Shown here piece after piece: positions 22,616 through 61,927 of a stretch of 64,000 nt of DNA. Where the stretch lies: positions 23,240-87,239 of the IMG/VR virus record IMGVR_UViG_3300023174_005819; one strand, written 5' to 3'. How positions within the stretch are numbered: the stretch's first letter is position 1; the number at the start of each line of letters is the position of its first letter. The notes beneath the pieces were generated by a model. It searched no databases. It was not told the origin of the DNA and worked only from the letters and a program-made list of their open reading frames with translations. The stretch comes from a virus. A program made the translations under genes and the position numbers.

Positions 22616-23316
22616 AAAATATAGCTCTCACTTCTGCGATAAATTATAATGATTATTTAAAAATTTTCAAACAACATAATTATAATTATTTTGATGAAAT
22701 ATATGTAGTTACAGATACAAAGGAAGATAATGAACTACAAGAGATATGTAGTGATTCTAAATTTAAATTAATAAAAACTGATAAATTTTATACTTTTGAA
22801 AATCAACCAGCAAAATTCAATCGAGGCGCAGCTTATACATACGCTATGAGTTTATTGCAAAATCCAGAAATAATTACAATTATAGACGCTGATACTCTAC
22901 TACCAGAGAGTTATCATAGTATATTTACAGAATTAAAATATAAAAAATTTGATTATATGGTGAGTGCTAGAAGATTCGTATTAGAAACTTATCAAGATTA
23001 TTCAAAAGTCTTTTTAGAAAAAGATCCAAATTATAAATTGGAAATAAGAAGTTCTGATTGGGGTTGGGGATATTTACAAATTTTTCATGCAAAAAGTAAA
23101 TGGTTAAAAAACGGGCTTGTATATCCAGAAAATTATGATTGTGCAGTATCAGATTTTATGTTTAGAAGGCAATTTGGATGGCATATTTTTAGACAAGATA
23201 CAGAAGAACATTATTGGGATCCAGAGGCGCAAGTATGCTTAAGGCAATTTCCAGTATATGGTCTAGGTCCAAATAATATTAATTCAAGAGGTCGCCGTGC
23301 ACCAGAATTTAAATAA
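22612..23316 (+). CDS. Putative glycosyltransferase (GT-A fold)
   Basis: A 234-residue protein and the last gene of the glycan block. ITIIDADTLLPESYH (residues about 87-101) has the strand-DxD-turn of GT-A transferases, preceded by FNRGAAYTYAMSLL, a donor-loop helix. Later SDWGWGYLQIFHAKS and a Trp-rich EEHYWDPE segment. Resembles GT2-type or galactosyltransferase-like phage proteins; I do not assign a family. Confidence 0.6.
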   Translation: MKNIALTSAINYNDYLKIFKQHNYNYFDEIYVVTDTKEDNELQEICSDSKFKLIKTDKFYTFENQPAKFNRGAAYTYAMSLLQNPEIITIIDADTLLPESYHSIFTELKYKKFDYMVSARRFVLETYQDYSKVFLEKDPNYKLEIRSSDWGWGYLQIFHAKSKWLKNGLVYPENYDCAVSDFMFRRQFGWHIFRQDTEEHYWDPEAQVCLRQFPVYGLGPNNINSRGRRAPEFK

Positions 23317-30633: not shown

Positions 30634-30858
30634 ATGGCATCATTAGACGATATTTATGATATAATCCAAAAACTAGAAAATGGTGGAATAGAATATTTAC
30701 TTATCACGGTCCAAAAAGGTAAAAAACAAGGTAAGGCTGATGTATTCTTTAATCTAAAAGATAAGGCATCTATGAAAATATTAGCGACTGGATTAGCAGC
30801 TTTTAACAAAGAGATAGATAATATTGATAGACAAGATGAAGATGAAGATGATGAATAA
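30634..30858 (+). CDS. Small acidic protein between exonuclease and polymerase
   Basis: A 74-residue protein one base after the exonuclease stop. Body: a short helix, a IEYLLITVQKGK beta pair, a DVFFNLKDKAS strand and an ATGLAAFNKE helix; tail DRQDEDEDDE. Similar in plan to the 87-residue gene at 24930. Position suggests a replisome accessory protein, possibly binding the clamp, exonuclease or polymerase. No known family. Confidence 0.5.
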   Translation: MASLDDIYDIIQKLENGGIEYLLITVQKGKKQGKADVFFNLKDKASMKILATGLAAFNKEIDNIDRQDEDEDDE

Positions 30859-33433
30859 TACCATAAAAGATGAATTATTTTCCAGTAAGTTTACTACTAC
30901 TGACCTTGGATTGCATGGGGTCAGACTTCCAGAATTTAATATTGATGGATCTTTAAAAAGACATCTTAACATTAGCGAAGATGTTTCTAATTACGACTTT
31001 CTAAGGGCATTAGCCCTAAATGGTTTCAAAGATTTAAAGATAGAAAAAGATAATAAAGATTACAAGAAATATATTGATCGAGCAAAATACGAACTAGAAA
31101 CATTGAAAGAATTAGGTTTTACTGATTATGTTTTATTAGTATGGGATGTTATTAATTTTTGTAAAACAAATAATATACCAGTTGGACTAGGTAGAGGTTC
31201 AGCTGCTGGTTCACTTATTCTTTATCTAATTGGCGTAACTAGAATTGATCCAGTTAAATATGACCTTTATTTCGAAAGATTTATATCCAAGATTCGAGCT
31301 AAAAAGCAGGTTATTGATGGAGTAACATATCTTGATGGCAGTTTAATGTGCGATGTCGATTTAGATATTTGTTATTATAATCGTCAAAAAGTATTACAGT
31401 ATTTAGAGTCTAAATTTAAAGGTAAAACTAGTAAAATTCTAACGCTTAATACTTTAAGTGGAAAACTTTTAATTAAAGAATGTGGTAAAATCGTTGGAGA
31501 AAAAACAGAAGAAGAAATGACGAATATTTCTTCATTAATCCCCAAAGTTTATGGTCAAGTTAAAGATATTAATACTGCATATGAAGAAGTAGAAAAATTT
31601 AAAGAATGGTGCGATGAAAATAAAGAAACATTTCAAATTGCTTTAAAGTTAAGAGATTTAATTAAAAATAAAGGAGTTCATCCATCTGGAGTTCTTCTTT
31701 CTTACTACGATTTAGAAACAGTATGTCCAACAGAATTTTCTTCTGATAAAGAACCAGTTTCAAGTTTTGATATGAATTGGGTTAGTTTATTTAATATTAA
31801 ACTTGATATCTTGGGATTAAGAAGTGTTTCCGTAGTTGATGATGTTTGTAAAAATATTGGCATTAAAGTAGAAGATATTGATTTAAATCATGAATCTATC
31901 TATAGAAATCTACAAGATTTAAAATCTCCTCATGGTTTATTCCAAATTGAAGCAGAAACTAACTTTAGAGTTTGTCAAAAAGTAAAACCAAAGAATCTTG
32001 AAGAACTTAGCGGAGTATTAGCTCTAGCAAGACCTGGAGCATTACAATTCGTAGATAAATATGCTGCCCACACAAATTATCAACAATCAGAAAGTATTCA
32101 TCCATTCTTTGATGATATTCTAAAACAAACTGGTGGAGTAGCATTGTATCAAGAGCAATTGATGAAGATGGCTAATAAGATTGGATTTACTTTGGATGAA
32201 GCAGAAATCTTAAGAAGAATCGTAGGCAAAAAGAAAACCGAAGAGATCAAAGCTTGGAAAAAGAAGATTGAATCAAAGATCAAAGAAAATAAAATACCAA
32301 AAGAAGTAGGAGAAATTCTATGGAAAATCTTGGAAGATTCTGCGAATTATTCTTTTAACAAGAGTCATTCATTGGCATATGCAGCTTTAGCGGCAGTTAC
32401 AATTTATTTAAAATTTAATTATCCTCAACAATTCTTCTTATCTTTATTGAAAATGAGCAGAAACGAACCAGACCCAATTGGTGAAATTTCTAAAATTCAA
32501 AAAGAAATGCATGAGTTTGATATTAAACTTCTTCCTCCGCATATCATCAAATCAGAGATGGATTTCTCAACAGAAGATAAAGATATTAGATTCGGATTAC
32601 TATCAATCAAAGGTATTAGTGATAAATCTATTGAAAAATTAAATAGTTTTAGAAATAAGTATTCTAATAAATTTGAGATTTTTCAAGCAGCAGAAGAAGC
32701 CAATCTTAATATTGGAGTGTTATCTTCTTTAATTCAAGCAGGAGCATTGAGTGGTTTTAGTCAATCTAGAAGTAAAATTGTATTAGAAGCTCAATTATGG
32801 AATATTTTAACTTCTAAAGAAAAGAAATATTCAATTTCATTCGCAGACAAATTTGATTATGACTTAATTAAAATTATTAAGCATCTTAATAAATTTACTG
32901 ACGAAAAGAATCATTTAGTTATTAAAGATAATAGATTAAATACTATTAAAGCAAAATATGCACCATATCTTGAAATCTATAACCAAAATAGTAAAAGCGA
33001 AAGTTTTGCTAATTGGTATTATGAAAAGAAACTTTTGGGATATACATATAATAAAAATTTAAGAGATATCTTCGCAGAGAAAAGAGAAAATCTTAAATAT
33101 GTTAGCGATATTGTAGATGAACCAGTTAATAGTAAAGTGGCATTTGTTGGTCAAATAGAAGAAGTCTATACTGGGGTATCTAAAAATGAAAAGAAAACCA
33201 GATATGTAAGGTTAAAGATATCAGATGAAACAAGTTCAATTAGCGTATTAATATTTAATGATAATATTGAGAATAATAAATTATTAAATAATAAAGCTTT
33301 TGAAGAAGGAAATATTGTTATTGCTAAGGGCTCAAAGAGAGATGATTGTATATTTGGAGACTTGATAGCTATTCAAGATCATCAAATTTATATGAAATTA
33401 AATGATTTAAAAAAGACAGATAAAAATAATTGA
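30851..33433 (+). CDS. dnaE: DNA polymerase III alpha core lacking PHP domain
   Basis: An 860-residue C-family polymerase. The N-terminus (LPEFNIDGSLKRHL) starts where a normal DnaE ends its PHP domain. YVLLVWDVINFCKTNNIPVGLGRGSAAGSLILY (residues about 97-129) is the classical GRGSAAGSL palm motif, and CDVDLDI (about 166-172) holds the catalytic aspartates. GVHPSGVLLS, an HhH-region ARPGALQFVD, then NYSFNKSHSLAYA follow. An OB fold lies near residues 760-840 (VAFVGQIEEVYTG..). The tau-binding tail of bacterial DnaE is absent. Start ATG 30851 overlaps the previous stop by 8 bases. Confidence 0.92.
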   Translation: MNNTIKDELFSSKFTTTDLGLHGVRLPEFNIDGSLKRHLNISEDVSNYDFLRALALNGFKDLKIEKDNKDYKKYIDRAKYELETLKELGFTDYVLLVWDVINFCKTNNIPVGLGRGSAAGSLILYLIGVTRIDPVKYDLYFERFISKIRAKKQVIDGVTYLDGSLMCDVDLDICYYNRQKVLQYLESKFKGKTSKILTLNTLSGKLLIKECGKIVGEKTEEEMTNISSLIPKVYGQVKDINTAYEEVEKFKEWCDENKETFQIALKLRDLIKNKGVHPSGVLLSYYDLETVCPTEFSSDKEPVSSFDMNWVSLFNIKLDILGLRSVSVVDDVCKNIGIKVEDIDLNHESIYRNLQDLKSPHGLFQIEAETNFRVCQKVKPKNLEELSGVLALARPGALQFVDKYAAHTNYQQSESIHPFFDDILKQTGGVALYQEQLMKMANKIGFTLDEAEILRRIVGKKKTEEIKAWKKKIESKIKENKIPKEVGEILWKILEDSANYSFNKSHSLAYAALAAVTIYLKFNYPQQFFLSLLKMSRNEPDPIGEISKIQKEMHEFDIKLLPPHIIKSEMDFSTEDKDIRFGLLSIKGISDKSIEKLNSFRNKYSNKFEIFQAAEEANLNIGVLSSLIQAGALSGFSQSRSKIVLEAQLWNILTSKEKKYSISFADKFDYDLIKIIKHLNKFTDEKNHLVIKDNRLNTIKAKYAPYLEIYNQNSKSESFANWYYEKKLLGYTYNKNLRDIFAEKRENLKYVSDIVDEPVNSKVAFVGQIEEVYTGVSKNEKKTRYVRLKISDETSSISVLIFNDNIENNKLLNNKAFEEGNIVIAKGSKRDDCIFGDLIAIQDHQIYMKLNDLKKTDKNN

Positions 33434-46016: not shown

Positions 46017-47432
46017 ATGAAAATAAATAATTTAAACTTAACTTTAGAATGGGATACATTAAGAAAAATACCTGAGTATGTTGAGGTTTTTGATGATTTT
46101 CCAAGTTATAATATAGCTGTAAAAGATAAAAATGGAAATATAATACAAAAATATTTCAATATTAAAAACAACGAACCACTTTTAGAAAAAAAATTTAAAG
46201 CAATAAAGGGCATACCTAAAATTAAATATTTCGTTAATTTATCTAAAAATCAAATTAAAAGTAATTTTAAATATAATTTTGAAGATAATTATAATAAATT
46301 TAAAGAATTAAATAATAAACTAGGATTTTTTAAAGAGTTATCATTCTCAATAGATTACAATAATGATGATAAAGAAGATTTTAATGTAAATGTCGAATAT
46401 GAAATTATAGAAGATTTAAATAAAAATATTTTATTTAATAAAGTATACAGAAGTAGTGATTATGTTAGTGCAAAATTATTAATTAATAAAGAATATTTCA
46501 ATCAAAAAAATATTCACTCTTTTTTAATTTTAAGTGAAGTTTCTAATAAGATTTTGAAAAATAAAAAATTAAACAATTTATTCATAGAAAATGTAAAAGA
46601 TAAATGGTTAGACGTAAATGAATCAACAACTTTGCTTACTGTTCCTTTTATAGAAACTGATATTGTAGAAATTTCGGAAAATTTAAATATTAAAATTATT
46701 CCACTTAATTATTTTCAATCTGAATTGTATAATTTTTTAAAAGAAAAAGAATCTCAAGAAGATATTAATAATTTATATGAAGAATATTTTTCTAATCAAA
46801 CATTTAATATTGGTAAGATATACAAGCAATCTGTAAATAATGAAACTGTAATATTTTATCAAAATTACTTATATTTATTCAATAATCAAAGTTTAAATTC
46901 AAATAGCTTAACTTCAGATTTATCAATTAATGATATGGTATTTAATAGTTATTTCCCACTTTTAAATAAAGATCAAACGAATAAAACTATATGCTTATCT
47001 AATGATTTAAATACAGATGATGTACTTGATAATAATTATAACCTACAAAAGGGATATTTAGGCTTTTACGGCAGAGACTCTAGCTCTTATGAAGATGTGG
47101 CAATTGATCTAGATTATCTTCAAAACCAAGGGGTACTTCAAGCCAAAATCATTGAAATCGAAGAAAATAACGATACTTGCAATATTTATATTGAATATAT
47201 AACCACTTTTTATAACAATGAGAAGTTCTATATAGAAACCAGTAATAACCTCAAATATAGCGAAAAATACAAGACAAATATTGATGGCAGGGAGTATATT
47301 ACTTTATTATTTAAATACTCTTATGACTTACAAAATTTAAATGAATATTTAAATGAAAATCCTTCTATAAATAAATCTCAAATAATATCAGATAAAGATT
47401 TGATTAATTTTTCTGTGAAACTTATACTATAA
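46017..47432 (+). CDS. Large hypothetical tail-associated protein
   Basis: A 471-residue protein 2 bases after gpJ. Rich in Asn, Lys, Leu and Glu, with long predicted helical and beta segments and no recognised motif. A C-terminal part (about 320-400: GYLGFYGRDSSSYEDVAIDLDY) is less AT-rich than the start. Being last in the tail-tip operon, it may be a tail fibre, a J chaperone or a receptor-binding accessory. It ends one base from the convergent tape measure gene. Confidence 0.5.
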   Translation: MKINNLNLTLEWDTLRKIPEYVEVFDDFPSYNIAVKDKNGNIIQKYFNIKNNEPLLEKKFKAIKGIPKIKYFVNLSKNQIKSNFKYNFEDNYNKFKELNNKLGFFKELSFSIDYNNDDKEDFNVNVEYEIIEDLNKNILFNKVYRSSDYVSAKLLINKEYFNQKNIHSFLILSEVSNKILKNKKLNNLFIENVKDKWLDVNESTTLLTVPFIETDIVEISENLNIKIIPLNYFQSELYNFLKEKESQEDINNLYEEYFSNQTFNIGKIYKQSVNNETVIFYQNYLYLFNNQSLNSNSLTSDLSINDMVFNSYFPLLNKDQTNKTICLSNDLNTDDVLDNNYNLQKGYLGFYGRDSSSYEDVAIDLDYLQNQGVLQAKIIEIEENNDTCNIYIEYITTFYNNEKFYIETSNNLKYSEKYKTNIDGREYITLLFKYSYDLQNLNEYLNENPSINKSQIISDKDLINFSVKLIL

Positions 47433-47446
47433 GTTATCGTTTTTTG
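47419..47446. terminator. Hairpin with T-run between two convergent genes
   Basis: AACTTAT / ATAAGTT form a 7-bp stem with a 3-base loop (47419-47435), followed on the + strand by ATCG and a run of six T (about 47440-47445). The stop codons of the + gene (47430-47432) and - gene (47434-47436) lie in or beside the stem, the same design as at 37925. Confidence 0.5.
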
Positions 47447-50400
47447 TATACATTAGATCCTAATAATCCGCCTGGTCTTTGCTGCTCTGTAATTGTTCTA
47501 ATAACTTGCTCTTTAACTCTTGCTGCTAATTCTTTTGTTCTTTGGTTCTCTGCTTGTCTGTCTTCATTTGCTGATGTGCTTTCATCCTTATTTTCTGATA
47601 CTATTTTTTCTTGATTTAAGTTAACTGTTACATTGATATTATTAGTTGGAGAATAATTGCTTGAGTTTCCTGTATTATCGTTACCAACTGATCCACCTTC
47701 TGCAAATTTTCTTGCTCTTCCAGAATTGAGATCATCAAAGAATTTTTTACCATACATATTGACCGCTTCTTTTCTCATTACAAATTCACCACCCATTAGA
47801 AGGGCTGGAATATCATCTTTGCCACTTGACCCACCATTTGCAAAACCTCTAATATATCCTCCCATAGCTTTACCTAATTTTAATCTTCCTCCAGAATATG
47901 GAGCAGGTTGAATAGGATTATAAGTAGTGCTACCATAAGCAGATCTTAAATTTACATCATTTACAGCGGTAGCTCTTCTTACCTCTTGAGAGCCCAAGGG
48001 AGATCCAGCGCCAAATATACTTTTAAATCCTCCCATTGAAGAGAATTGACTTGCTCCTGCTCCAAGGAGACCAAGACCAAAACTCATCCATGCGCCTCTA
48101 CTTTTTGCGCTTTTTTGTTGATTATATTCATCTCGAATTTTTTTATTTAGAGCTATATTTTCTTGTAATGCTCTTTCATTATCTGCTCTTACTCCATCTA
48201 CATAATTTAAATAATCGTATAAAGCTTGTTCTCTATCTTGCCTAATTCTATTTTGAGGATTATTTGGATCAGTAACAGCTCGCCCACTTAAATTTGAACT
48301 AAAAAGTTCTTGTCCAGCGGTTGGGTAAAGAGGATCATTATATCTATAAACATTTGTTCCAAGATAAGAAGTTTCTCCACCAGATGCAAATCTTTGAACT
48401 CTTCCACCGTATTTAAAATAATTATCTTCTCTGTCGCTCTGTCTTGCGCGCATGCCTATTCTAGAAGTTGGAGAAGTGTTGGTAGAAACATTTTGATTAC
48501 TTCCTTTACTATTACCTAGATTTATACCAAATACTGGAGCTATATTTTGAAGCATAGAAGGATTGCCTTGACCAAGTCCTGCCATAGCTAAACCCATCGC
48601 TCCTCCCAAAAAGTGTTTTTGAACCTTTCCTTCATTTAACATTTGCAAATATTCTGGACCATATTTTTTAACAGCATTTTTTCTTATTACATATTCTCCA
48701 CCACTTAACATAGCTGGAACATCATCTTTATTTCCTGATCCGCCAAGAACATGTCCTCCTGTAGAATAACCTTTAATAATTCCACCTTTTGATTTGGATA
48801 GACCGCTTAAAAAATCTCCGATTCCACCACCGAGACCGCTAGTACTACCAAAAAGAGAACCAAAAATTTGATTTGTTGCAAATTCTAATGCTAATTGTTG
48901 TATTCTATCACTAATATTATTAGCCATTCTTGTAAATGCATCACTTGCTGTTTCTGTTCCATTCGCAAAAGATAAAAAGGCATTGTTAAATTCGCTTTTT
49001 ATTGTTCGCGCTGTGTCAGAAGCGGTTTGATTTACATCTCTAAATGCATCTTGAGCACCATATGTCATTTCGTCTGTAAAGGAACTAAATGCATCGCCTA
49101 TATTTCCCTGTCCACTTCTTATTCTATCTTCTCTTGCTTTATTTTGTAATTGTTTATATTCATCTGCAAATATAGTTCCTTCTTTGAACGCGGCTACTGC
49201 TTGCAAACTAGTTGCAGCTGCAGATGAAGCATAATTTAATTTAACTATGTTGTCACCAAGTTCTTTTTTAAGTTGAGATTCTTTTTCTGTATAAATATTT
49301 AATACTTCATTTCTAGTAGCAGCATCGCCAATTGATGAACCTAGTTCTACTAAATTTTTACTTGTCATACTAGCTTCCATGCTAGTTTGTTGAATTGCAA
49401 TTTGTAATTCAGCTAATGTCCTATCAGTTAAATTTCCAGTTTCTTCAATTTCTTGTGCAGCTTTTTTATAAGCTTCTCCAAATTTTGTTTCTAATGCGAT
49501 TCTTTTTCTTTTGTCTGTTGTCCCTGTTAATATTCCCTGTAAAGCTGAAAGATTAGTTCCTCTAAGAATCTCATTTTGTTTTAAATTTTGCCCTGGACCG
49601 TTTAAAAAGTCTTCTACTAAAAGACCAAAATCTCCTTTTTGAATAAAATCTGCAGCTTGGCTTCTTACAACTGAATCTGGTGAGAATAATTTTTGGGTTT
49701 GTGCACTTAAATTACTTAAATTTAAAAAAGCTGATTCTTGTCTTTTAAATGCTGCGTCCACTTCACGAGAAGTATTTCTTAAGTTTCCAAAAGCATCTTG
49801 TAATGCCTTTGATTTTTCTGTCAATGATTTATCACTATTTAATACTTTTTCTATAGAGTCTGCTAATTCTAAAGCTTTATCTTTTTCTAATTTTCCAGAA
49901 TCTCCTAATTGAAGGATGAAATCCTTTAATCCTTTCCCAGAATCTTGAATTGCTGTTTGTAAATCTTTTTCATAAGCCTCTTTGCTTGGATTAATTACGG
50001 TCACATTTCCAAGATCATCTACTATTGTTTGTATTTTTTGTGATCCAAATCCAGCAGGAGCTGCTCCAGCGCCACCTACATTAGTAGTATTAAATCCAAA
50101 TATATCATTTTTTGCAAATTCATCTATACTCATAGTAGCTTTATCTGCTGCAATTGATGCTTGCTCTATAGATTTTGCTACTTGATCATTTATTCCATAG
50201 TATTTTTCTGAAGCTATAGTTAATGTATCAAATGATTTCAATAAACCGCTTTGTTGAGATATTAAATCTGCAATATATTCTCCATTTTTTGTTTTTATTG
50301 ATCCTAATTGTCTAAGTGTATCGGTTATATCTAAATTTTTAGCTCCATCTTTAAGTTGTTCATTAGTTGTTTGTATGAATTGATTTACAAAATTATTAGA

Positions 50401-53400
50401 AGCAATTTCATCGTTTGCTTTTTGTATTGCAGACTGTAGCTGGGCCTCTGTTCCAGATAATCCTGCTAAAAGTTCTTTTTGAATACCTTCGCTTACAGAC
50501 GAAAAAATTCTATTAAATGAAGCAGATCTTTGAGATTCTAATTTAGCTAAATCTTCTGGTCCAGCGGTAATTGCTCCAGATTGAATTCCTGCTACTTTTT
50601 CTCTTGAGGTTAAAAATGCTTGAACGTCTTCAGAAAATCTTGCTACTCTATTACCAGATTCTCTAGAGCTCTTCGCAAGCTCTTCTGATTTATCATTTAA
50701 TTGTTTAAAAGCTTTAGTTAATCCAATTGTAACACCAACTAATCCACCAAACGCTACGCCCAATGGCCCAAATAAAGCTCCTGCGCCAGCAAATGATGCT
50801 GTATCACTTAAAACTGTTGTTCCAGCTGTAGCATATTTATTATTTGGCATAAATTCTTGAATTATTTGGCTTACTATTGGAACGGCTATACTTGCTCCAA
50901 TTCCAATACCTTGTAATCTTGAAGCTGAATTAGCTCTTCTTTCTCTTGCTGCTTCTAATCCACCTCGCGCTAATTCTGCTCCTCTTCCTCCAGATGCTGC
51001 TCTTGCTTCTAATTGTTTTACGGCTTTAGAACCTGTTATTAAATTTCCACTTGCAGCAACTAATGAATCTGTTTCAACCACTAATCTTTTGTAAGAAGCA
51101 TCTGCGCGATTCAATGTATTTCTTACTTTTTCTGTAGTAGAATCAATTAAATAAAATTCTCTAGTAAGTTTCTCTAATTCTTTATTTGCTTGATCAAAAG
51201 TTAGTATTCCTCTATAAACTTTTTTTGCAAGATCTGTAAGCGCTGCATTAGCTTCTTTAGATGCTGGAACGATAAGTGGACCTGATTGTCCTTGATTTGA
51301 TTGATATAAAGCAAAATTAGGAATTAGTCCTTTAGCAGCACCTGCTCTGCGAGCTTCACTTACTGAACCATATCTTGATATGCCTTGAGATAATCCTCTT
51401 GGTTCATCTCTTGTATTATAAACTCCAAGACCGCTAGGATTCATATTAGAAATTAAAGAGTTATCTCTTCCGATTCTTATAGAATTTGGATTTACTCCAG
51501 CTTTCTTTTCTCTATTTATTGCATCATTTAAATCATTTGCAAAATTAGGAATAAATCCATCAAAAGCTTTTTTACCTTTAACTGTAGAAAATTTTCCTGC
51601 TCCAAGTAAAGCTCCTTCTTCTCTATAAATTTTATTTGCAAAACTTTGCAAATTACCTTCAGATAATCCACTTTTAAAATCTGCAAGAAATGTTGTAAAA
51701 CCAAAAAGTTTTTGTAAATGTATTAAATTTTTTCCTCCTCTAACGTCAAAATCTCCAAAGTCTTTTGGTGCTTCTTCAGCAGTATATCCTAATGCCGTTT
51801 TTATTCCAACTTCAAAAGCAGAACCAACTGCGCCACGAACTGCTCCATATGCTCCTTTTTCTCCAGAACGTTGAAATTGTAACCCTAAATTTGCTTTAGT
51901 TACAGTTTTTCCCAAAGGTTTTAATGTATCAATAAAATTAAATACATCATCTATGATACTATTAGTTATATTTGTGCCTAATCTTGCCTTATCGTCAGAA
52001 ACATCTCCATCTACTTTAGTTTTATTAATTCCATAAACTGGAACATTTTTAATTGCAAATCTATCAGATTTACCTTTTGGTGAATATGGTCCAGGTAATA
52101 TTTTTTTAGTTCCTGCGAATGGTAACAATATACTTGCAATATTACTAGCATCTACTGGTTTAATTCCTGCTGCTAACGCTGCTTTTTGACCCCTAGGAGA
52201 TCTGCTTAAAATATCATCTTTTTGAGCTTCAGATACAGTTAAAGCTTTTCCTGCTGAATCTACTCCATATTTAAATTTTTGAGTTCCTGGAATTCTTTCT
52301 AATTCATTTTTTATCGCAGCTAATCTAACTGCTTCATTTCTGCCCAACTCAAAATTTGGGATAAATCCACTATTGGCATAAGGATTAAATCCGTGAGCAT
52401 TAGAAAATTGTTTTTGATAATTTTTTCCAGCTTTGCTACCTTGAGGTGGCATTATAGCTGGTTGAGAAAATCCTTGTATTCTTTTTACTGTTTCTGCAGA
52501 ATTATAAACTACTCTACCAGCTCCAGCAATATTCATTTCTTTAATATTTCCTGGTTTATATCCTCCAGCTAATGCACCATAAATTTCTTGCATTGCAAAG
52601 TTTGGAATAAATCCATCACTTCTTGTAGTAATTTGCCCACCTTTAAGAGTTACTCCTCTACCAACTAATCCGCTAGTAATTGAACCAGATAAAGCCGTGG
52701 CTTGTTGTCTTAATGCATTTTGTTCTCTTAAGATTCCTAATATTCTATTTTCTACATCTAATATTGAAATTTGTTTAGAAGCTATTGCTGAAAGAAGTTG
52801 TGGTTCTTGAGAAAGAATACTCGAAATTTTTCCTTCAATAGCAGCTCTATCCGCAGCTTGCTTGCCAATACCTAGTAATGTTTTAGCTGAAGTAGCGGCA
52901 AATTTACTTAAATCTAAAAATAATTTTCCAATAACAGCTGTTATTAATAATAATCCAGGACCAGATATAAAAGTAGAAAGACCACCTAGAATTCCAGCTC
53001 CAATTTTAGCTCCAACGCTTTCTGAGTCTTGATTAGCTAACCCTTCTAATATATTATTTACATTTTTTAATGTGCCTTCGATTGCTGGTTGAAAAGCTCC
53101 CGCACCAATTTTAGCTCCTAACTGACTAAAGTTTGTTAGCGTTCTGCTTGTTAAAGCGGATAGAGTTTCATTTAATGCTTCATTTCGTTTAATGGCTTGA
53201 TCAGTCGCGCCTCTTGAAGTATTTAAAGCATTATTATAAACAGAATATTCTTTACCCAAATCACCCAAAGCAGCTTTTAAAATGTTAATCTGGAAAACAC
53301 CACCAACACTTTCTGCAACTTGTGATCTTTGAGCATCAGAAAGAGTATCAAAAGTTGATGACAATTCTTTTAAAATATCAATCGCTGGACGAGTGCTACC

Positions 53401-54231
53401 ATCTAAATTACGAACTTCTAAGCCTAAGTTTTGTAATTGATCCAATACTTCTGGTCTAGCAACTCTTGTAAAAATAGTCTTTAATGAATTACCAATAACT
53501 GCACCACCTCTAGCAGTAGTTTGCTGAACGCTTGTTACAATAGCTAATAATTCATCGAATCCAACCCCTGCGTCTTGAGCAGAACTACCAACTCGTTGAA
53601 TTGCATTAGCCAAATCAGCAGAACTAACAGCAAAAGCCGCGTCAACATTTGCTAATTTATTAATAACAGTTGTTGAATCTAGGGCTGTTTGATTAAAACT
53701 GTTTAATGTAGCTGTTAAGGCTTCTACGCTAGAAACAGTATCTAATCCACTTAATCTAGTTAAAATTAAAGCATCTCTTGTTCTTTTTAGTGTTTCTTCT
53801 ACGCCAAGACCTTGACGAGCTAATTCTGTTGCAGCTTCTGCAACTGATTGAAATGATTGTCCAGTATCTTTAGCTACGGTGAATAAATCTGCACCAAATT
53901 TTTCTAATCCCTTTGATGTTGTATTTAATATGATATTAATATCAGTAAGAGATTTTTCAACATCTATTGTACTTTTGATTAAACTAACGAAAGCTTTTTC
54001 TACAGCAAAAATTGATCCAGCACTAGCACCGAATGCGATAACACGAGCATTAGAAGCATCTAATGACTTTTGGAACTCGTTAGAAGCTCCAGTAATTCGG
54101 CCTAATGGCTGGGTAAAGGCCTTTTCATTAAATCCTTTGAATTTAAAATCGCGAGATAAAGCACTTTGAATATCTTTTTCAAGTTGCCTTGTATCTGCAC
54201 CTACAGAAATTGTAGCTGACGTTCTTGCCAT
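47434..54231 (-). CDS. Tail tape measure protein with embedded minidomains
   Basis: A 2265-residue protein. Residues about 1-450 are the TP901-type tape measure start: VAKDTGQSFQSVAEAATELARQG and SSAQDAGVGFDELLAIVTSVQQTTARGG. Residues about 538-975 contain four G[FL]IPNF motifs that divide short domains, one with a nuclease-like pattern (E807, D827/D829, D851-x-K853). Membrane-like helices occur at about 1120-1190. Coiled-coil helices follow. Two copies of a DD[VI]PA.L.GGE[YF]V.RK.AV..YG block, typical of tape measure tails, are near the C-terminus. Length predicts a long tail. Start has AAGGA before the ATG. Confidence 0.9.
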   Translation of the reverse strand: MARTSATISVGADTRQLEKDIQSALSRDFKFKGFNEKAFTQPLGRITGASNEFQKSLDASNARVIAFGASAGSIFAVEKAFVSLIKSTIDVEKSLTDINIILNTTSKGLEKFGADLFTVAKDTGQSFQSVAEAATELARQGLGVEETLKRTRDALILTRLSGLDTVSSVEALTATLNSFNQTALDSTTVINKLANVDAAFAVSSADLANAIQRVGSSAQDAGVGFDELLAIVTSVQQTTARGGAVIGNSLKTIFTRVARPEVLDQLQNLGLEVRNLDGSTRPAIDILKELSSTFDTLSDAQRSQVAESVGGVFQINILKAALGDLGKEYSVYNNALNTSRGATDQAIKRNEALNETLSALTSRTLTNFSQLGAKIGAGAFQPAIEGTLKNVNNILEGLANQDSESVGAKIGAGILGGLSTFISGPGLLLITAVIGKLFLDLSKFAATSAKTLLGIGKQAADRAAIEGKISSILSQEPQLLSAIASKQISILDVENRILGILREQNALRQQATALSGSITSGLVGRGVTLKGGQITTRSDGFIPNFAMQEIYGALAGGYKPGNIKEMNIAGAGRVVYNSAETVKRIQGFSQPAIMPPQGSKAGKNYQKQFSNAHGFNPYANSGFIPNFELGRNEAVRLAAIKNELERIPGTQKFKYGVDSAGKALTVSEAQKDDILSRSPRGQKAALAAGIKPVDASNIASILLPFAGTKKILPGPYSPKGKSDRFAIKNVPVYGINKTKVDGDVSDDKARLGTNITNSIIDDVFNFIDTLKPLGKTVTKANLGLQFQRSGEKGAYGAVRGAVGSAFEVGIKTALGYTAEEAPKDFGDFDVRGGKNLIHLQKLFGFTTFLADFKSGLSEGNLQSFANKIYREEGALLGAGKFSTVKGKKAFDGFIPNFANDLNDAINREKKAGVNPNSIRIGRDNSLISNMNPSGLGVYNTRDEPRGLSQGISRYGSVSEARRAGAAKGLIPNFALYQSNQGQSGPLIVPASKEANAALTDLAKKVYRGILTFDQANKELEKLTREFYLIDSTTEKVRNTLNRADASYKRLVVETDSLVAASGNLITGSKAVKQLEARAASGGRGAELARGGLEAARERRANSASRLQGIGIGASIAVPIVSQIIQEFMPNNKYATAGTTVLSDTASFAGAGALFGPLGVAFGGLVGVTIGLTKAFKQLNDKSEELAKSSRESGNRVARFSEDVQAFLTSREKVAGIQSGAITAGPEDLAKLESQRSASFNRIFSSVSEGIQKELLAGLSGTEAQLQSAIQKANDEIASNNFVNQFIQTTNEQLKDGAKNLDITDTLRQLGSIKTKNGEYIADLISQQSGLLKSFDTLTIASEKYYGINDQVAKSIEQASIAADKATMSIDEFAKNDIFGFNTTNVGGAGAAPAGFGSQKIQTIVDDLGNVTVINPSKEAYEKDLQTAIQDSGKGLKDFILQLGDSGKLEKDKALELADSIEKVLNSDKSLTEKSKALQDAFGNLRNTSREVDAAFKRQESAFLNLSNLSAQTQKLFSPDSVVRSQAADFIQKGDFGLLVEDFLNGPGQNLKQNEILRGTNLSALQGILTGTTDKRKRIALETKFGEAYKKAAQEIEETGNLTDRTLAELQIAIQQTSMEASMTSKNLVELGSSIGDAATRNEVLNIYTEKESQLKKELGDNIVKLNYASSAAATSLQAVAAFKEGTIFADEYKQLQNKAREDRIRSGQGNIGDAFSSFTDEMTYGAQDAFRDVNQTASDTARTIKSEFNNAFLSFANGTETASDAFTRMANNISDRIQQLALEFATNQIFGSLFGSTSGLGGGIGDFLSGLSKSKGGIIKGYSTGGHVLGGSGNKDDVPAMLSGGEYVIRKNAVKKYGPEYLQMLNEGKVQKHFLGGAMGLAMAGLGQGNPSMLQNIAPVFGINLGNSKGSNQNVSTNTSPTSRIGMRARQSDREDNYFKYGGRVQRFASGGETSYLGTNVYRYNDPLYPTAGQELFSSNLSGRAVTDPNNPQNRIRQDREQALYDYLNYVDGVRADNERALQENIALNKKIRDEYNQQKSAKSRGAWMSFGLGLLGAGASQFSSMGGFKSIFGAGSPLGSQEVRRATAVNDVNLRSAYGSTTYNPIQPAPYSGGRLKLGKAMGGYIRGFANGGSSGKDDIPALLMGGEFVMRKEAVNMYGKKFFDDLNSGRARKFAEGGSVGNDNTGNSSNYSPTNNINVTVNLNQEKIVSENKDESTSANEDRQAENQRTKELAARVKEQVIRTITEQQRPGGLLGSNVYKKR
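51315..52615 (-). repeat. Four G[FL]IPNF motifs in the tape measure gene
   Basis: Residues 540-545 (GFIPNF), 622-627 (GFIPNF), 892-897 (GFIPNF) and 968-973 (GLIPNF). Each is preceded by Asp/Ser/Ala and usually followed by Ala. Between them lie units with recurrent words: AGAGRVVYN, HGFNPYA, SIRIGRDN and GLGVYNTRDEP. Confidence 0.85.
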
Positions 54232-61183: not shown

Positions 61184-61927
61184 TTATATTATTAATCTTT
61201 TATTTGAATCTTTTGAAGAATGTACATTGTCTATTATATCTGTTTCAGTTTGACAAGAGGCATTTGTTCCATAACAATTTATATCTTCGTATAAAAGGGC
61301 CATATATTCATCAACTGGACCCTGTATAGTAGATTCGTAAAGTTTTTTAGCCATATCTTTTGTTAAAACATACGAATGTAAACATAGAGCATATTTAATT
61401 TTTTGCAAAGGATATTCAAATTTAACATCTTCTACGTATAATGATTGTTCTGCGTATCCAGCAAGCCAACCTAATAAATATACATCAAAATTAATTTCCG
61501 TTTGATTTTCTATATAATCCAATAAGGGTTGTATTCTGCAAGTAAAAGTAATGTCATCTTCTAATATTAAAGAATAATCATAATTCATCGCTTCTTTCCA
61601 TGCTTTTTTATGACTTTTTGCCACGCATACTTCTGGTAACGACATACTTAATAAATCATTTTCTTTGTCATAATTTGTTAATTTTGATAATTCATATTGA
61701 TCTCTATGTGGACAAAAATATTTAGTTTTTATATTTTCTAATAAGTCTGTTTTGTTTATTTTTTCATAATCTATATATTCTTGATTGTTTTCATCTAAAG
61801 AAACAAAATTTTTATAATCTATTGCTGATATTTTTTCAAAAGATGGAATACCATGAAACTCAAGATGTTTTTTCATATATTCAAAACGATCTTGCCTTCT
61901 ATCTAAATTAATAATAAAAGTTTTCAT
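61184..61927 (-). CDS. Glycosyltransferase, GT25-like
   Basis: A 247-residue protein. TFIINLDRRQDRFEYMKKHL is the GT25 opening and YSLILEDDITFTCRIQPLL (residues about 118-136) the metal site. Paralogue of the 6021 gene. It has its own late box, so it is expressed with virion proteins; a role in glycosylating a tail or capsid protein is plausible (inference). Confidence 0.85.
   Translation of the reverse strand: MKTFIINLDRRQDRFEYMKKHLEFHGIPSFEKISAIDYKNFVSLDENNQEYIDYEKINKTDLLENIKTKYFCPHRDQYELSKLTNYDKENDLLSMSLPEVCVAKSHKKAWKEAMNYDYSLILEDDITFTCRIQPLLDYIENQTEINFDVYLLGWLAGYAEQSLYVEDVKFEYPLQKIKYALCLHSYVLTKDMAKKLYESTIQGPVDEYMALLYEDINCYGTNASCQTETDIIDNVHSSKDSNKRLII

Follow-up and report, generated by a model that had tools for sequence, protein, structure and literature searches.

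Exchangeable cassettes between GFIPNF motifs of a phage tape measure protein include a predicted PD-(D/E)XK-type nuclease

A tape measure protein encoded in the IMG/VR virus record IMGVR_UViG_3300023174_005819 was analyzed in a stretch of 64,000 nucleotides (positions 23,240 to 87,239 of that record), hereafter called the window. The protein is probably a carrier of exchangeable effector cassettes, and residues 628-891 probably form a PD-(D/E)XK-type nuclease whose active site is intact and which would be delivered into the host. Copies of a short motif, GFIPNF or a close variant, separate the cassettes.

The tape measure gene and its parts

The open reading frame (ORF) at 54231-47434 encodes the phage tail tape measure protein, as judged by the N-terminal domain and the tail gene neighborhood. 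Pfam PhageMin_Tail matched residues 120-311 of this 2265-amino-acid product with E=1.5e-30, many PHROG tape measure families matched it as well, and PHROG placed its neighbors among lambda J-like central fiber, I-like tail assembly and minor tail families. A first-pass annotation, made from the sequence alone, had located four copies of G[FL]IPNF, and all four positions were confirmed, with GFIPNF at residues 540, 622 and 892 and GLIPNF at residue 968. Residues 540-975 correspond to window positions 52614-51309. The features, all on the minus strand, are as follows.

47434..54231, minus strand: tape measure protein, 2265 amino acids (Pfam PhageMin_Tail, PHROG tape measure families), adjoining lambda-like tail tip genes
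53299..53874, minus strand: PhageMin_Tail domain (Pfam), residues 120-311
52597..52614, minus strand: motif 1, GFIPNF, residues 540-545
52369..52596, minus strand: small module S1, residues 546-621, 76 amino acids; 44 homologous segments, recurring before the nuclease module
52351..52368, minus strand: motif 2, GFIPNF, residues 622-627
51559..52350, minus strand: predicted PD-(D/E)XK-like nuclease module, residues 628-891; 145 homologous segments, signature and structure model
51811..51813, minus strand: E807; E in 137 and D in 4 of 141 members
51745..51747, minus strand: D829; 141 of 141
51673..51681, minus strand: D851-F-K853; D/E and K each in 141 of 141
51631..51633, minus strand: K867; K or Q in 141 of 141
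51541..51558, minus strand: motif 3, GFIPNF, residues 892-897
51331..51540, minus strand: small module S2, residues 898-967, recurring as the final module ahead of the C-terminal part; about 70 homologous segments
51313..51330, minus strand: motif 4, GLIPNF, residues 968-973
50707..50814, minus strand: glycine-rich hydrophobic stretch, about residues 1140-1175, read directly from the sequence; putatively membrane-inserting

S1 and S2, the two small modules, have a [GV]VYN[ST]xxE-like stretch in common and are usually found on either side of the nuclease module.

Exchange of cassettes at the motif

Pattern scans of IMG/VR DNA for G[FY]IPNFA, four in number and giving counts that are lower bounds, found at least 304 ORFs with the motif, at least 262 of them with two or more copies and some with up to nine. 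Counts over 262 refer below to the multi-motif ORFs, or their loci, among the matches listed in IMG/VR. These are the motif-bearing tape measures with differing domains between motifs for which the first-pass annotation had suggested a search, and the uncultivated bacterial viruses that have such tape measures form a widespread group. The N-terminus of the window protein was matched by 64 of the 67 motif ORFs of the first scan set whose first motif lies beyond residue 350. In 62 complete genes a mean of 623 amino acids precedes the first motif, and the cargo spans 57 to 995 amino acids. Cellular genomes gave 44 matches to the GFIPNFA DNA pattern, about the number expected from a chance estimate; the sole multi-motif match among cellular contigs (L127) lies on a 3,960-bp contig of a Proteobacteria metagenome-assembled genome and is probably a phage fragment.

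A chance origin of the motif was ruled out by shuffles, codon differences and alignment. G[FL]IPNF did not occur once across 2000 composition shuffles of the tape measure protein. Alignment of 878 motifs gave the consensus A[AS]xG[FY][IV]PNFA, with P and F present in all 878, as fixed by the search pattern, and N in 870. The DNA of the motif has four sites in the whole 87,239-bp record, all inside the tape measure gene, and at the 262 loci the motif is confined to its one ORF and absent from every other ORF. The four copies in the window differ in codons, as do the DNA sequences of 423 of 467 GFIPNF pairs lying within the same ORF in relatives. Since the codons differ between copies, selection acts on the protein, and the motif is not a DNA repeat.

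The motif is the module boundary, and related viruses swap cassettes exactly there. Loci L006 and L058 share 96% identity over the 300 residues preceding the cargo, 88% over S1, 97% over S2 and 97% after the cargo, while their nuclease modules share 28%, and the breakpoints are motifs 2 and 3. A second pair, L172 and L222, has flanks that are 98, 84, 96 and 89% identical around a module with 28% identity. Insertion was seen as well, L007 having an additional 155-amino-acid module between two motifs when compared with L006. The module of the window is 85% identical to that of L006, against 57, 74, 61 and 28% for the flanks, and being far closer than its surroundings it has moved horizontally. 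Comparisons of related ORFs included 125 insertions or deletions and 1010 replacements, which are pairs and not independent events, some of the replacements being diverged alleles of one family. That the motifs bracket separable domains, as had been proposed from the window alone, is borne out by these allele swaps and insertions. When the mosaicism of phage proteins was surveyed in 2023, no genuine recent case could be confirmed for tape measures (PMC10684548); both swap pairs described here are clear cases.

In one lineage a variable slot lies between a near-identical N-terminus and a module called m1. This slot holds the 628-891 family in L014, a module of the SNase cluster in L193, L090 and L112 (Pfam SNase, 1.9e-9, for the cluster representative), or else m6, m11, m15, m21 or m26, in which E/D/(D,E)xK-like patterns were read by eye. 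The occurrence of unrelated folds in the same slot points to a common task, which is predicted to be nucleic acid cleavage.

Sharp boundaries, horizontal transfer and a nuclease signature would also be expected if the module were a selfish in-frame homing nuclease that cuts module-free tape measure genes at the IPNF coding sequence. Such an element would need to cope with motif DNA that differs in most pairs (423/467), many of the exchanged modules are not nucleases, arrays reach nine motifs, and no splicing elements were seen. We regard a homing nuclease as highly improbable.

The predicted nuclease module

In PD-(D/E)XK enzymes the signature comprises a glutamate in the first helix, an aspartate in a strand, (D/E)xK in the strand that follows and a lysine or glutamine in the helix after it. 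Iterative hidden Markov model (HMM) searches seeded with residues 628-891 found 63 and then 145 homologous segments, and this family is the commonest of the modules, occurring in 156 of the 262 multi-motif ORFs. Conservation was assessed in 141 aligned members, whose non-redundant set has a mean pairwise identity of 19%. G803, D829, D/E851, K853 and K/Q867 are present in all 141, and position 807 is E in 137 and D in 4. By these sequences the family carries the catalytic signature of the PD-(D/E)XK superfamily. In alignment A1 the only invariant columns outside the motifs are the catalytic positions and G803. As a control for circularity, the signature columns were masked in the first 63 sequences and the HMM search was repeated; 48 unseen segments were found and all 48 had the signature. 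The background rate was 37 of 161 other modules of at least 150 amino acids and 11% of shuffles. The first-pass annotation had read AFE (805-807), DFGDFDV (824-830) and ADFKS (850-854) as a PD-(D/E)XK-like series and had named loss of these residues in homologues as grounds for abandoning it. The series is present as described, and both the 141 relatives and the masked, held-out segments retain the signature. Its active-site residues stood for E807, D829, D851 and K853, to which K867 is added; D827, also proposed as catalytic, was rejected by conservation (D in 19 of 141), D829 being the conserved aspartate.

In a structure model made with AlphaFold2 (AF2), the order of helices and strands around these residues is as expected. 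The model of the window module (mean predicted local distance difference test, pLDDT, 79; predicted template modeling score 0.69) has, in model numbering, a helix at 173-192 with E807, a short strand at D829, a strand at 228-232 with D851 and K853 and a helix at 237-254 with K867. A member from locus L070 with the opposite order of parts gave the same succession of helix, strand, strand and helix at a pLDDT of 70. Of the structural expectation attached to the earlier claim, the order of elements was found, whereas a fold match by Foldseek was not.

Several results weigh against a delivered PD-(D/E)XK nuclease. Foldseek searches of PDB and BFVD returned no match with E<=1e-3 for either AF2 model, Pfam assigned none of 48 module members to a nuclease family, and a sequence search of PDB gave no credible match to a known nuclease. 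Many members have only 21-35 residues between K853 and the next motif, so that the canonical last strand would need to be supplied by the N-terminal part, in a putative permuted topology. Finally, in the group of viruses with the m1 slot no neighboring gene varies with the nuclease type and the genes are conserved throughout; a variable immunity gene beside the toxin, as in polymorphic toxin and MuF systems, was not found in this group. No significant homology to a named nuclease was obtained by Pfam, PDB sequence search or Foldseek (PDB, BFVD). A profile match is not strictly required, and members of the PD-(D/E)XK superfamily are often missed by sequence searches. Among the 19 weak Foldseek matches of the L070 model (all E>1), four were bunyavirus or arenavirus endonuclease or polymerase entries, and such entries contain PD-(D/E)XK-like nucleases. 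The family shares with the superfamily the E, the D, the (D/E)xK and the K/Q of the following helix, and differs from it in having no detectable match to a described family. Its extra strands also differ in place, seemingly lying N-terminal to the signature helix in the usual member.

In 136 of the 141 members roughly 100 residues or more of the module precede the signature helix, and in the other five the signature begins within the first 25 residues. Our guess is that a natural circular permutation explains both placements. A further PD-(D/E)XK-like pattern of different build (FERLALEK...RIDALED...VIEMKSGD) was noted in residues 636-1034 of the L233 ORF, where it directly follows a canonical-order member with GFIPNL between the two.

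Attempts to anchor the 628-891 family to Hjc or VRR_NUC by genome searches were dropped, as there were too few anchors. Searches of 50,697 phage records by tblastn gave no match for the nuclease module or for an S1/S2 consensus, and cultured phages gave none for two other cargo arrays either; four weak Synechococcus phage matches to S2 (E=2) were taken as chance.

The modules could also be spacers that derive from enzymes and, catalytically idle, lengthen or stiffen the tape measure. The length of a carrier of this type sets the length of the tail, and the cargo span and the total length are correlated (r=0.69). Loss of the active site would be expected of a spacer, whereas here the active-site residues are the sole invariant positions at about 19% identity, and one slot accommodates nuclease-like modules of unrelated folds. 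Idle spacers are accordingly rated very unlikely.

Other cassettes

Apart from the nuclease family, modules of 90 amino acids or more formed 79 clusters. Judged by sequence, some of these cassettes look like acetyltransferases, kinases and P-loop nucleoside triphosphatases. Pfam matched GNAT (7.2e-8), PcfJ (3e-7), HIGH_NTase1_ass (1.4e-7) and HATPase (8e-5) in the cargo. By motif alone, m0 may be a P-loop module (Walker A in 19 of 30) and m17 appears kinase-like (HGxN and DPG in 3 of 3), and there are ADP-ribosyltransferase-like and HExxH-like modules. Ten modules named in this way were tested with Pfam without a match, and their names are to be taken as leads. Several kinds can be combined in one protein, as at L070 5331-8798, where eight motifs separate at least seven modules, two of them of the nuclease family and the others including GNAT and P-loop modules.

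Profile comparison by hhalign with the 628-891 family gave probabilities of 83 for m69 and 58 for m62, moderate support for a remote relation, and weak ones for m6, m77 and m11. The catalytic residues are in register for m69, and for m6 with H replacing K. High scores of m7 and m8 are possibly due to composite segments in their clusters. The assignment by eye of m5, m10, m12, m15, m21, m26, m54, m56 and m74 to PD-(D/E)XK was unsupported by hhalign against this family and was set aside.

S2 is the final module in 74 of the 262 multi-motif ORFs.

Proposed delivery into the host and possible roles of the motif

The cargo region, residues 540-973, appears to be inserted between the N-terminal tape-measure domain and a hydrophobic, helical C-terminal part, and the G[FY][IV]PNFA motifs would separate the cassettes as flexible joints. 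The tape measure, the long protein inside the tail, is among the first components to enter the host. The nuclease domain would travel with it in the tail lumen and reach the host before the phage DNA does; delivery of an enzyme domain into the cell had also been suggested in the first-pass annotation. There it may refold or be released and cut the host chromosome, a plasmid or RNA. The glycine-rich stretch near residues 1140-1175 may aid membrane passage. Exchange between unrelated nuclease families could then reflect an arms race with host protection. During injection, the tape measure of lambda is labeled at the ManYZ complex of the host inner membrane (PMC13190303), and delivery of the cassette into the host is inferred by analogy.

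Tape measures are made late, inside the producing cell, and the nuclease might act there, in DNA processing or the breakdown of host DNA, and not as a delivered effector. It would be odd to fuse a late intracellular enzyme to the one protein threaded through the tail and then ejected, and the palette of cargo, with nucleases, an acetyltransferase and kinase-like modules, resembles injected phage proteins (PMC5512222, PMC7824862). An action in the producing cell seems unlikely to us, and the delivered effector is the reading followed here.

GFIPNF itself may be a protease site, a tether to a partner in the tail or host, or merely a tolerated joint. The AF2 model gave the motifs at both module ends a pLDDT below 50, as expected of flexible linkers. 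A proteolytic release site that frees each module, which is a version of the delivered effector and not an alternative to it, fits the near-invariant core and the predicted flexibility; a tether or chaperone-binding motif would look alike, and we consider the release site possible, though doubtful. Should the motif serve as a signal for release or tethering, it would also hint at how the tail tube gets loaded with enzymes.

We are inclined, with less assurance than for the window protein, to see the tape measures of this large group of uncultivated phages as a general effector-delivery platform, in which the short GFIPNFA motif would allow nucleases and other enzymes in the tail lumen to be exchanged, and the tail protein would itself attack the cell ahead of the genome with no need of an immunity gene. 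This offers a testable answer to what a tape measure does after cell entry, beyond setting tail length and DNA passage. It would also give access to numerous natural effector domains of phages, the majority lacking a Pfam match, which can be listed by a simple motif search.

Relation to known systems

In the open-access papers searched, we found neither the motif nor cargo cassettes of tape measures described, and none of those containing the string IPNFA was relevant. Several enzyme domains in one protein, the hallmark of polyvalent proteins, are seen in the motif ORFs, whose products are predicted to be injected. We know of no linker motif common to polyvalent proteins. The polyvalent proteins of phages and plasmids are likewise very long, have many enzyme domains and have been inferred to enter with the DNA, but tape measures are not mentioned in their description (PMC5512222). 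Together with MuF toxins, they come nearest to the present system in behavior.

MuF polymorphic toxins of temperate phages, more than half of them nucleases and others metallopeptidases and ADP-ribosyltransferases, have been proposed to be delivered to target bacteria, and they too are phage-encoded proteins with exchangeable effector domains (PMC5576092). Their carrier is the MuF protein, with the toxin at the C-terminus, and it is usually followed by a small ORF for which an immunity role has been proposed (PMC5576092), unlike the present system, in which the cassettes are internal, multiple and bounded by one motif and no varying neighbor gene was seen. The swap and insertion pairs do present a conserved carrier with exchangeable domains, whose toxicity is predicted; this carrier is a tape measure and not a MuF or secretion-type domain. 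Bacterial polymorphic toxin systems similarly shuffle toxin domains, many of which are nucleases, on a carrier that is conserved, but they have bacterial secretion carriers, immunity genes and C-terminal toxin tips (PMC3482391). The tape measure of mycobacteriophage TM4 has an enzymatic motif inside it, that of a peptidoglycan hydrolase, which acts on the cell wall and aids infection and is not an exchangeable nuclease cassette (PMC1796659).

Neighboring genes

The 87-kb record, possibly incomplete, yielded no integrase. A glucosyltransferase-like gene at window 61184-61927 (PHROG 2835, 1.2e-15) lies upstream of the tape measure by a few genes; glycosylation of DNA or of the surface by its product could bear on self-protection. 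A 471-amino-acid gene at 46017-47432 is convergent with the tape measure and had no PHROG match. Many putative glycosyltransferase and sugar-nucleotide genes occupy window 1166-29991, with epimerases, GDP-mannose dehydratase, GT25, GT61, GT11, GT17, GT47 and FkbM, a glycan synthesis cluster unusually large for a phage. A DnaE/PolIII-alpha-type DNA polymerase is encoded at 30824-33433, and ThyX, DnaB and a separate PDDEXK_1 protein are encoded elsewhere in the window.
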